From contig NZ_CP107254.1 of the NCBI RefSeq assembly GCF_029229925.1, forward strand, positions 2,294,001 through 2,358,000: 64,000 nt of DNA. The letters are read 5' to 3'. Shown here piece after piece: positions 8,500 to 25,245 of this stretch. The first letter of the stretch is position 1. Every line of letters begins with the position of its first letter. The DNA is from Halorhabdus sp. BNX81. GTDB lineage: Archaea > Halobacteriota > Halobacteria > Halobacteriales > Haloarculaceae. Position numbers and translations under genes: made by a program. The notes under the pieces were generated by a model, which did not search any database, had not been told where the DNA came from, and was given only the letters and a program-made list of their open reading frames with translations.

Positions 8500-8700
8500 C
8501 CGCCGAGCGAAGCGAGGCGGTTCACTGCGACGGAGCGAAGCGACCGAGCAGGTGTTTTTGGTCCAGATTTTTGCGAGTCGAGCGGGACCGGAGGTCCCGC
8601 TGACCATGCGAACGGACGCTTCGCGTCCGTGAGCAGAAGGGGTTCCCGCAACGAGCCATCGGCTCGTGAGGAAACCCTCCGAAGTAAAAAGGTGGTATAG
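8500..8700. repeat. Hairpin-rich non-coding stretch beyond tRNA-Ile array
   Basis: The stretch has no convincing gene but several short perfect hairpins with 3-nt loops: AGCGGGACC/GGTCCCGCT (8581-8601) and ACGGACGC/GCGTCCGT (8612-8630, loop TTC). A nested stem with GGGTTCC…GGAAACCC also occurs (8640-8678). Runs of T (8554-8558, 8568-8572) and of A (8686-8690) flank the hairpin block. The hairpin style is the same as in the tRNA-Asn and tRNA-Arg arrays. Confidence 0.55.
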
Positions 8701-8857
8701 TGGGCCAAACCGGATTTGAACCGGAGCAAGACGTTCCGGGGACGCTCACTCCGTTCACGTCCCGGGCTGCGACTTGCAGGGTTCAAATCCGCTCGGATCA
8801 ACGAGTTCGCGCTCACAGGCTCGTCGCTACGCTCCTCGCATTGTTCGCGCAGAATAG
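8698..8857 (-). repeat. tRNA-Ile tail array: duplicated tRNA 3' end plus 81-nt element
   Basis: Bases 8698-8724 are an exact 27-nt copy of 8855-8881, the 3' end of the tRNA-Ile gene plus its flank. Between them lies an 81-nt element (8711-8791) with outer arms CGGATTTGAAC/GTTCAAATCCG, which reproduce the T-arm of this tRNA. Its core reads, on the tRNA strand, AAGTCGCAGCCCGGG … CCCCGGAACGTCTTGC. The core recurs next to tRNA-Asn and tRNA-Arg. The remaining bases 8792-8850 hold a direct repeat of GTTCGCGC. Confidence 0.75.
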
Positions 8858-8931
8858 TGGGCCAAACCGGATTTGAACCGGTAGCCTCCCGGTTATCAGC
8901 CGAGCGCTCAACCTGATTGAGCTATTGGCCC
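8858..8931 (-). tRNA. tRNA-Ile (GAT anticodon)
   Basis: The 74-nt cloverleaf starts GGGCCAATAGCTC. The acceptor GGGCCAA pairs with TTGGCCC, the anticodon loop is CTGATAA (GAT), the T-arm is CCGG-TTCAAAT-CCGG, and the discriminator is A. No intron is present and CCA is not encoded. It is transcribed leftward, and its 3' flank carries the duplicated tail array. No rRNA is adjacent, so this is a stand-alone isoleucine tRNA gene. Confidence 0.95.
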
Positions 8932-18850: not shown

Positions 18851-18901
18851 AGCTACGTGCACACGCCGTCCCGAGTTGAATCCGTCGCTCTCCGGAAGCC
18901 T

Positions 18902-19321
18902 GCCGCCAGGACTCGAACCGATGCAAGACGTTCCGGGTCACTCGCTGACGCTCGCTTCCCGGGCTGCGACTTCCGTGTTCGACCCTGGGGTACGCCGTCC
19001 TTGACGATAGCTATCGCTCGGCGATGAAACGCCTCGCAGAATCGTCAAGAGACGCCGTCCCGAGAACTGCGCAGCAGTTCTCGTGGGCCGGAAAATCGCT
19101 TCGCGATTTTACGCCGCCGTCAGAGCAAGCTCTGACGTGCCGTGAATTTCACAGAAATTCACGCCGCCGCCAGGACTCGAACCGATGCAAGACGGTCTTG
19201 CTCGTTCGCTGCGCTCACTGCGCGAGCTGCGACTTCCGTATTCGAGTCCTGGATGATCTCGTATTCACCGGCGACGATGCTCGGAGCAGACGCTCCTCGC
19301 GAGTTGTCGCCGGTAGAAGTA
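18902..19321 (-). repeat. tRNA-Asn tail array: hairpins, tRNA 3'-end copies and two 83-nt elements
   Basis: No gene is present in this 420-base stretch. Reading away from tRNA-Asn there is: a 9-bp-armed hairpin (19267-19314); an 83-nt element (19170-19252, arms CCAGGACTCGAA/TTCGAGTCCTGG); a copy of the tRNA 3' end (19161-19183, overlapping the element); hairpins 19141-19163, 19118-19137, 19092-19110, 19061-19083 and 19001-19048 with perfect 8-10-bp stems; and a second 83-nt element (18906-18988). Fragments ACGCCGYC, matching the tRNA acceptor end, sit between hairpins. Both elements contain the core seen at tRNA-Ile and tRNA-Arg. Confidence 0.8.
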
Positions 19322-19394
19322 CGCCGCCGCCAGGACTCGAACCTGGGACAACCACGTTAACAGCGTGGTGCTCTACCATCTGAGCTACGGCGGC
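19322..19394 (-). tRNA. tRNA-Asn (GTT anticodon)
   Basis: The 73-nt cloverleaf starts GCCGCCGTAGCTC. The acceptor GCCGCCG pairs with CGGCGGC, the anticodon loop is CTGTTAA (GTT), the T-arm is CCAGG-TTCGAGT-CCTGG, and the discriminator is G. No intron or encoded CCA is present. It is transcribed leftward into the tail array. The CCA-adding enzyme gene begins 115 bases away in the opposite direction. Confidence 0.95.
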
Positions 19395-19508: not shown

Positions 19509-20861
19509 ATGTCTGAGGAGCTTACGGGCGTTCTCCAGGCGGTTCGACAGCGCGTCGAACCGACCGACGCCGAGCGGGAACGCCTCGACCGGGCGGCAAC
19601 GGAGGTGATCGACCGGGCCGAAGCGGCGCTCGAGGAGCAAGGCATCGACGGCGACGTCATGCTCGTCGGCTCCACCGCCCGAAACACCTGGATCGCCGGC
19701 GACCGCGACGTCGACGTCTTCGTCCGATTCCCACCCGACACTGAGCGCCAACGGCTCGAATCGGTCGGCCTCGACATCGGCCACGCAGTCCTCCCTGACG
19801 GCCACGAGGAATACGCCGAACACCCCTACGTCGTCGGGGAAGTCGACGGCTACGACGTCGATCTGGTCCCCTGCTACGACGTCGAGGATGCGACCGCGAT
19901 CCAGTCAGCCGTGGATCGCACGCCGTTTCACACCGAATATCTCCGGACCCGCCTCGACGACGACCTCGCCGACGATGTCCGGCTCTGTAAAGCCTTCCTC
20001 AAGGGAATCGGCGTCTACGGGAGCGACCTCCGAACCCAGGGGTTCTCGGGCTATTTGACCGAACTGCTGGTGCTGGAACACGACGGCTTCCGATCGCTGA
20101 TCGAGGCCGCGGCCGAATGGCACCCACCCGTCCGCTTCGATCCGGAAGATCACGGTACCGCCACGTTCGACGACGAACTCGTGGTCATCGACCCGACTGA
20201 TCCCGAGCGCAACGTCGCCGCGGCGCTGTCGACGGCGAACCTCGCCCGCTTTCAGCACTACGCCCGGGAGCTACTCGCCGAGCCACGTGGGTCACTGTTC
20301 GACCCATCCGAACCGGAACCGCTCGATCCGGTAGCAGTCCGGGCAGCCTTCGACGAGCGCGGGACCACACCCGTCGCACTCACGTTCGAAACGCCGGCTC
20401 TCGTCGAGGACGATCTCTACCCCCAACTCGAGAAGTCACTCGATGGGGTCGGCGGACTGCTCGATCGTCACGGCTTCGACGTGTTGCGATCGGCTGCCTT
20501 CGCCGACGAACGGGCCGTGCTCCTGTTTGAACTCGAAGTCGCCCAGCGACCGGCGATCGAGCGCCACGTCGGCCCACCGGTCCACGTTCGCGAGCACGCC
20601 GATGGCTTCTACGAGAAATACGCCGACACGGACGTCTACGGACCGTTCGTGAGCGACGATCGCTACGTCGTCGAGCGCGAGCGGGCCTACCGGACCGCGG
20701 CCGAGTTACTCGAAAGCGACGCGCTGTTCGATGTCGCACTCGGGACGGATGTCGAGAGTGCTCTCAAGACGGACCATACGGTGCTGATTGGGCCAGCCGT
20801 CGGCACACTCGCCGAGACTTTCGGGCGGGAACTCGCCGGCTATCTCGACCCGAAGCCCTGA
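19509..20861 (+). CDS. cca: CCA tRNA nucleotidyltransferase (class I, archaeal)
   Basis: This 450-residue enzyme adds or repairs the 3' CCA of tRNAs, which is needed because the tRNA genes here do not encode CCA. The nucleotidyltransferase motif GSTARNTWIAGDRDVDVF gives catalytic Asp67 and Asp69. The archaeal central domain has DLVPCYDV, and KAFLKGIGVYGSDLRTQGFSGYLTELL is diagnostic of the class I fold. Length is normal. It is monocistronic, divergent from tRNA-Asn, and its end overlaps the deacetylase gene tail to tail by 22 bases. Confidence 0.95.
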   Translation: MSEELTGVLQAVRQRVEPTDAERERLDRAATEVIDRAEAALEEQGIDGDVMLVGSTARNTWIAGDRDVDVFVRFPPDTERQRLESVGLDIGHAVLPDGHEEYAEHPYVVGEVDGYDVDLVPCYDVEDATAIQSAVDRTPFHTEYLRTRLDDDLADDVRLCKAFLKGIGVYGSDLRTQGFSGYLTELLVLEHDGFRSLIEAAAEWHPPVRFDPEDHGTATFDDELVVIDPTDPERNVAAALSTANLARFQHYARELLAEPRGSLFDPSEPEPLDPVAVRAAFDERGTTPVALTFETPALVEDDLYPQLEKSLDGVGGLLDRHGFDVLRSAAFADERAVLLFELEVAQRPAIERHVGPPVHVREHADGFYEKYADTDVYGPFVSDDRYVVERERAYRTAAELLESDALFDVALGTDVESALKTDHTVLIGPAVGTLAETFGRELAGYLDPKP

Positions 20862-24856: not shown

Positions 24857-24929
24857 GTCCGGGTAGGGTAGTGGACTATCCTCTTGGCTTGCGGAGCCAG
24901 GGACCGGAGTTCAAATCTCCGTCCGGACG
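24857..24929 (+). tRNA. tRNA-Arg (GCG anticodon)
   Basis: The 73-nt cloverleaf begins GTCCGGGTAGGGTAG. The acceptor GTCCGGG pairs with TCCGGAC, the anticodon loop is TTGCGGA (GCG), the T-arm is CGGAG-TTCAAAT-CTCCG, and the discriminator is G. No intron is present and CCA is not encoded. The 3' flank carries an array of hairpins and partial copies of its own 3' end. Confidence 0.95.
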
Positions 24930-25245
24930 TTCACTCTTCGCGAGTGCTTCGCATTGCTCAGCACTCGCTCTGTGGTTCACGCCCGGACGTGCCCCACGCT
25001 CGCTTCGCTCGCGTGGGACTCCGTCCGGACGCTACATTTTCGCGGACCAAGATCGCGAGCGACTCCTATGTCGCTCGCCTCAGTCCGCGTTATGCGTCAA
25101 TGACGGAGATTTGAGCAGGGAAGTCACAGCCCGGGAAGCGAGCGTCGGGAGCGACCCGGAACGTCTTCACGAGTTCAAATCTCCGGTCGAACTCCGTTCG
25201 ACCGTGCTCAGCGCTCATTTCATTCGCGCTGAACTCCGTCCGGAC
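24930..25245 (+). repeat. tRNA-Arg tail array: hairpins, tRNA 3'-end copies and one 82-nt element
   Basis: Reading from the tRNA: hairpin GCGAGTGC/GCACTCGC (24940-24968); partial tRNA end CCGGACG (24983-24989); hairpin CCCACGC/GCGTGGG (24993-25017); 13-nt tRNA 3'-end copy CTCCGTCCGGACG (25019-25031); nested hairpins GCGGAC/GTCCGC and GCGAGCGAC/GTCGCTCGC (25042-25088); 82-nt element (25104-25185, arms CGGAGATTTGA/TCAAATCTCCG) with core GAAGTCACAGCCCGGG…CCCGGAACGTCTTC; hairpin GGTCGAA/TTCGACC (25185-25203); hairpin TCAGCGC/GCGCTGA (25208-25232); and another tRNA end copy CTCCGTCCGGAC (25234-25245). I see no gene in it. Confidence 0.8.

Follow-up and report, generated by a model that had tools for sequence, protein, structure and literature searches.

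Short gene-free units carrying copies of the tRNA 3' end lie behind many tRNA genes of Halorhabdus and probably reflect serial integration

The window analyzed here is a stretch of 64,000 nt from Halorhabdus sp. BNX81 (NZ_CP107254.1, positions 2,294,001 to 2,358,000), whose genome (the home genome, G000) is a single contig of 2.83 Mb. The gene for tRNA-Asn lies on the minus strand and is followed by an array of hairpins that forms its 3' tail (Table 1). Its divergent neighbor on the plus strand (19509-20861) is a gene for a CCA-adding enzyme, with Pfam CCA-adding and tRNA nucleotidyltransferase domains. An Rfam search of the window reports three tRNAs only, and the tail matches no Rfam family above the gathering score.

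A first-pass annotation had described this array as compact hairpins separated by fragments of the acceptor stem, and both are real and far above chance: the array stretch folds with a z-score of -7.15, none of 100 dinucleotide shuffles folds as well, and perfect hairpins are abundant in tRNA tails generally (see below). Acceptor fragments of the form GRCGGCGT are present across the tail, with ACGCCGTCC at 18863, 18992, and 19052, and ACGCCGCC at 19111, 19162, and 19321. Overlooked at that stage were two 20- to 23-nt copies of the tRNA that span its T-loop to its 3' end, and two large hairpins (hairpins B), one preceding each copy. Hairpin B is imperfect, and is built from the T-arm; the T-arm in reverse complement (the inverted T-arm) forms its left side, and the T-arm copy itself forms its right side. 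The copied piece thus does contain the acceptor fragment, as had been proposed, but the full copy corresponds to tRNA nucleotides 53 to 73 and not to the acceptor alone.

Table 1. Features of the tRNA-Asn tail and of related tRNA loci (window coordinates unless stated otherwise)
Feature	Position	Strand	Remarks
tRNA-Asn(GTT)	19322..19394	-	nt 53-73 are the repeated segment
Unit 1, 160 bp	19161..19320	-	hairpin A, hairpin B, and copy of tRNA nt 53-73; borders uncertain inside the 23-bp repeat
Hairpin A of unit 1	19267..19314	-	9-bp arms, 30-nt loop
Hairpin B of unit 1	19170..19252	-	inverted T-arm, AGTCGCAG core, apical hairpin, CGTCT, T-arm copy
Copy 1 of tRNA 3' end	19161..19183	-	22/22 over 22 nt
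Small hairpin pair h1/h2	19118..19163	-	followed by acceptor fragment
Perfect hairpin	19141..19163		10 bp, 3-nt loop
Perfect hairpin	19118..19137		8-9 bp
Small hairpin pair h3/h4	19061..19110	-	followed by acceptor fragment
Perfect hairpin	19092..19110		8 bp, 3-nt loop
Perfect hairpin	19061..19083		10 bp, 3-nt loop
Long-loop hairpin, A-like	19000..19049	-	9-bp arms; in front of second hairpin B
Hairpin B of old distal unit	18906..18990	-	read from sequence
Copy 2 of tRNA 3' end	18900..18919	-	decayed, 19/22
Hairpin B and copy behind tRNA-Ile (8857-8931)	8710..8791	-	unit missing in G004
Hairpin B and copy behind tRNA-Arg(GCG) (24857-24929)	25106..25183	+	
tRNA-Val(GAC) element region	C1:2620200-2629600		outside the window

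Comparison with close relatives, proposed at the outset, found stepwise presence and absence within the tail. In G006, a genome of the same genus, the tRNA-Asn tail starts directly with the sequence that in the home genome comes after unit 1, so that exactly the 160-bp unit 1 is missing; there is a 23-base overlap of the flanks at the tRNA end, and with the 160 bp omitted the two genomes agree at 448 of 460 positions, free of gaps. The small hairpins behave differently from what had been supposed, in that the h1/h2 and h3/h4 pairs come and go independently of each other (compared by eye in the tRNA-Asn tails of seven genomes of the genus, G000 to G006, and of G008, which belongs to another genus). 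The suggestion that each event adds one hairpin is not borne out, since unit 1 has two large hairpins and the small ones are present or absent as pairs. The small hairpins, noted at first for stem sequences of their own, are partly old and shared: the h3/h4 pair is also found behind tRNA-Asn of G008. The distal hairpin B element is also found behind tRNA-Asn in the same-genus genome G004 (98% over 88 nt). We note that the stems of the small hairpins (19061-19110 and its relatives) are conserved between species and that their 3-nt loops differ in nearly every species.

The tRNA-Asn array is not an isolated case. A BLAST search of the home genome with the array finds five other places, all of them behind tRNA genes (Arg, Lys, Tyr, Ile, and Leu), and we examined the sequences downstream of the 41 Rfam-model tRNAs of the home genome and of 42 each in G006 and G004. 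At least one copy of the 3' end of the adjacent tRNA (80% or more of 21 to 22 nt) is present in 23 of the 41 home tails, compared with 3.4% of tail-query pairs when other tRNAs serve as queries and with none of the 41 upstream regions (200 nt). When a tail is called from either a direct copy or an inverted/direct T-arm pair, tails are present at 28/41 tRNAs in the home genome, 20/42 in G006, and 25/42 in G004; the set of tailed tRNAs differs between sister species, and 13 of the 41 home tRNAs have none. Tails are always on the tRNA strand and are closely matched to their own tRNA, which is best or joint best for 77 of 87 T-loop-like segments (those with a best tRNA match of 15/20 or more), the other 10 having no tRNA above 17/20. 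The inverted T-arm is less specific (own tRNA, 29/41; other queries, 39%) because many tRNAs share a T-arm. The tRNA-Ser(CGA) gene, present in G006 and G004, is absent among the 41 Rfam tRNAs of the home genome. Behind the tRNA-Ile tail unit, positions 8580-8660 of the window contain more perfect triloop hairpins, of 8 and 9 bp. In the tails of Val(TAC), Gly(TCC), Glu(CTC), and Ala(CGC), the copies are split between T-stem and acceptor part by groups of perfect hairpins, which gives the impression that the copies are themselves targets of another type of insert.

The borders of the repeated segment are sharp. Across 74 copies, 52 of them perfect, identity to the own tRNA is 0.92 to 1.00 at every position from G53 to nucleotide 73, and outside it is 0.84 one base before, 0.46 two bases before, and 0.53 one base after. 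The repeat is therefore nucleotides 53 to 73, from the start of the T-loop at GTTC to the discriminator base, without CCA. A uniform search of the home genome, G006, and G004 yielded 27 filled/empty comparisons, which cover 20 tRNA loci and include some units scored against two genomes; the length differences are 61 to 432 bp. In 20 of the 27, the break is between -3 and +8 relative to the tRNA end. Among the other seven, two (Gly-CCC against G004, and Ala-CGC) have aligned stretches that overlap the tRNA end, which makes them ambiguous, and five lie 47 to 115 nt from it. Empty sites run on into the old flank with one copy of nucleotides 53 to 73, and the units come with a 21-nt duplication. 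A unit behind tRNA-Pro(GGG) is present in the home genome and in G004 and missing in G006, a pattern that suggests loss; identity values do not settle which of G006 and G004 is closer. Units of approximately 110 to 190 bp are thus present or absent at the tRNA 3' end in relatives, alone or several together, and each includes a copy of nucleotides 53 to 73 of its tRNA and a T-arm/inverted-T-arm hairpin around a variable apical hairpin.

Such units are widespread in the Halobacteria. The pattern AGTCGCAGC..CGTCT..GTTCRAA is present in 286 of 391 genomes of the class and in 70 of 86 genera, and the same pattern reversed, as a control, is present in 0 of the 391 genomes. A stricter pattern finds at least 80 loci in named genomes, and those listed are haloarchaeal or halobacterial by title in 77 cases and bacterial in 3. 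Among the loci listed, 70 of 83 pattern matches have a same-strand tRNA no more than 900 nt upstream, with a perfect 21-nt copy of that tRNA in 49 of the 70 matches listed. These core patterns were modeled on units already observed and cover only that core type, and others exist: the loops of 81 B hairpins from the three genomes include 36 of a CAG type, 13 of a CGCGC type, and 32 others. Units are common to different tRNAs and genera, with conserved flanks around the variable apical hairpin. The core pattern also has matches in seven stretches of viral contigs, none with an inverted T-arm or a tRNA, and these were taken as chance; a distant BLAST of the array against phages and plasmids gave no match, so that these searches of phages, plasmids, and viral contigs yielded no true unit.

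Larger elements occupy the same position. Behind tRNA-Val(GAC) of the home genome is a 9.3-kb element with ParB-like, DNA methyltransferase, primase-like, and Phage_integrase genes, the far end of which is a copy of the tRNA 3' end (22/22, starting at G53). Beyond this copy is a unit with hairpin A and hairpin B, resembling the G006 tail that lies directly behind the same tRNA (79% over 251 nt), and the element has displaced this old unit from its place beside the tRNA. A PF00589 search of the home genome gave two genes only, both outside the window; with no PF00589 match in the window, no integron integrase adjoins the array. L163, L165, and L215, three loci from named genomes, each have a tyrosine recombinase gene approximately 90 to 210 nt from a displaced tail unit, with no tRNA within the slice examined; at L163 it is the 3' part of the gene that lies there, the L163 and L165 enzymes were assigned by reading their translations, and that of L215 is 41% identical to the tRNA-Val integrase. 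Tyrosine-recombinase elements therefore land between a tRNA and its tail, and one of them duplicates the same nucleotides as the units. Reading the ends of these larger elements (tRNA-Val, L163, L165, and L215) revealed no inverted T-arm, and integrase relatives in viral contigs, at two loci, have no T-arm match in either. We also considered whether the units are collapsed larger elements, and rejected this, as the ends of the tRNA-Val element are unlike hairpins A or B.

We consider it likely that the tails arise by site-specific integration, one after another, of non-coding miniature elements at the 3' ends of tRNAs, with a tyrosine recombinase supplied in trans. This agrees with the initial proposal of serial insertion at the tRNA end with a copy left by each event, and is supported by the borders at nucleotides 53 and 73, the own-tRNA match, the filled/empty comparisons including the Asn site, the units common to different tRNAs and genera, the tRNA-Val element with its identical footprint, and the recombinases near the L163, L165, and L215 units. 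The enzyme would cross over near G53/T54 of the T-loop, although a crossover at nucleotides 73/74 instead may be envisaged; no filled/empty pair with differing nucleotides 54 to 73 was found. An incoming unit would bring nucleotides 54 to 73 with it, which would leave the tRNA intact and shift the old 3' end to the far side of the unit. Repetition would stack the units, presumably with the newest beside the tRNA, and recombination between the 21-nt repeats could remove them. The units are too short to encode a recombinase, and they could at most be non-autonomous. Several observations fit serial integration poorly: no unit encodes a recombinase and the genome has only two PF00589 genes, the larger elements lack the inverted T-arm, true units are missing from the phages, plasmids, and viral contigs searched, double-stranded circles of approximately 110 bp would be strained, and the matching of one core to many tRNAs is unexplained. 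Losses by homologous recombination would also give the same empty sites.

The folded shape of hairpin B raises a further possibility, that it serves as an attC-like site recombined as a folded single strand, in which the inverted T-arm would rebuild a double-stranded recombinase site and the tRNA T-loop would be the docking site. Its likeness to attC is presumed from general resemblance and not from an attC model. Of 85 folded hairpins, 38 have a larger 3' side and 2 a larger 5' side in the internal loop beside the T-arm helix; in 22 the two sides are equal, and the remaining 23 have a loop of more than 5 nt on one side. Such an asymmetry would come naturally to a single strand that folds. The conservation of the flanks around an apical hairpin that varies, the preference for G-T over A-C in the T-arm helix (see below), and the start of the repeat at GTTC point the same way. 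However, no integron integrase was found and no gene cassettes were seen, the apical stems of B hairpins show no strand preference, and the tRNA-Val element of the same genome has no inverted arm. We regard this as possible but doubtful, and it would refine serial integration by a recombinase rather than exclude it. In its fullest form, which we view with the same reserve, haloarchaeal tRNA genes would be gene-less integron-like docking sites at which a tyrosine recombinase captures, at G53/T54, single-strand hairpins with an inverted target T-arm, and at most tRNA genes the tRNA-tuned units would form an ordered record of such captures.

A different explanation is that the tails are functional RNA trailers, co-transcribed with the tRNA, whose hairpins and T-arm mimics control tRNA 3' processing, stability, or level, with selection keeping the match; the constant tRNA strand and the own-tRNA match accord with this. 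In the 450 nt behind 125 tRNAs of the three genomes there are 160 perfect hairpins of at least 8 bp, compared with 19 in a similar length 600 to 1,050 nt downstream and 6 in one block-shuffled set. Imperfect tail hairpins are few (4 have a single G-T, 2 a single A-C, and 12 a different mismatch), whereas the region 600 to 1,050 nt downstream has 4 G-T, 7 A-C, and 19 other mismatches beside its 19 perfect hairpins. Among orthologous hairpins, compared in both directions so that events are counted more than once, both members are altered in 73 stem pairs that form a different Watson-Crick pair and in 17 that no longer pair, and single changes comprise 27 G-T, 33 A-C, and 64 others. Stem pairing is thus maintained, without the wobble preference expected for RNA. 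The paired changes would suit RNA trailers, but the near absence of wobble pairs, the balance of single changes, the many tail-less tRNAs with a tailed set that differs between sister species, and the lack of an Rfam family would not. The earlier idea of RNase P- or RNase Z-type punctuation similarly finds no support in stems that nearly lack wobble pairs and whose changes do not favor G-T over A-C. The T-arm helix is the exception, with G-T to A-C ratios of 53:11 in the genus set and 58:18 in the class set, concentrated at few positions; G-T pairs were rejected as proof of RNA function because the apical stems and orthologous changes do not share this excess, and from the T-arm helix alone the tails may have some RNA role. 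A kink-turn in hairpin A and a bulge-helix-bulge (splicing) motif in the copies are further conceivable readings. Overall, RNA trailers are an improbable account of the tails.

Near-perfect palindromes and concerted stem changes could also come from local slippage or template switching, in which fold-back synthesis at the tRNA end makes both the inverted and the direct copies and keeps the palindromes perfect without any mobile element, and copies that match the adjacent tRNA would follow. As the origin of the units this is very unlikely: a core common to different tRNAs and many genera is something that de novo copying cannot give, and the empty sites run into old flank with one copy of nucleotides 53 to 73. 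Such processes may nonetheless keep the stems perfect and the arms matched.

The tRNA genes of the home genome bear tens of very small units that match their targets, and sister species differ in these units. If serial integration is correct, these would be the smallest tRNA-directed integrative elements known to us, each tRNA would retain its past insertions in order, and the units would make it possible to test, in a natural system, whether folded single strands serve recombinases other than in integrons. Both tRNA annotation and provirus searches based on repeats can be misled by the units.

Mobile DNA is well known to land at tRNA genes, and to our knowledge the mobile elements found there carry genes. 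At one locus of Escherichia coli, tyrT/rtT, tandem repeats lie behind a tRNA, each with a piece of the tRNA 3' end; the haloarchaeal tails differ in involving many tRNAs, own-tRNA copies, and inverted T-arm hairpins. Archaeal tRNA-targeted integrative elements, as presented in the part of the account available, use tyrosine recombinases, encode their own integrase, bear genes, and are kilobases long (PMC8371274). The units resemble them in the 3'-end target, the restoration of an intact tRNA, and the 3'-end repeat on the far side, and differ in being approximately 110 to 190 bp, gene-free, and at most tRNA genes. The far-side direct repeat and a precise empty site in relatives (where loss is not separated from gain) are both found for the units, but an integrase of their own is not found in these inserts of 61 to 432 bp; the tRNA-Val integrative element of the home genome shares their footprint of nucleotides 53 to 73. 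Integron cassette arrays and their attC sites, as far as the excerpted text describes them, similarly have tandem units at one docking site, a variable apical part, and asymmetric loops (PMC9668308), whereas no integron integrase or cassette genes are found here and the arms copy the neighboring tRNA; the text of that archaeal integron paper mentions neither Halobact-, haloarchae-, nor tRNA. The PATEs and small mobile repeats of Haloquadratum walsbyi are, in the portion of the report available, likewise short, non-coding, palindrome-bearing, and haloarchaeal, but PATEs and SMR-A are reported to lack target duplication (PMC3119063); the units lie at tRNA genes with a 21-nt duplication, and the Haloquadratum elements are not described there in that portion. 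In Methanopyrus kandleri, a palindromic motif lies just downstream of about half of the tRNA genes (PMC5217627), also placing palindromes behind many tRNA genes of an archaeon, but according to the available extract it is short and belongs to a single species, with no tRNA-end copy and no arrays. No published account of such haloarchaeal tRNA tails was found in the sources covered, which mostly exclude subscription journals, such that an earlier description is possible. tRNA-directed integration as such is already well known.
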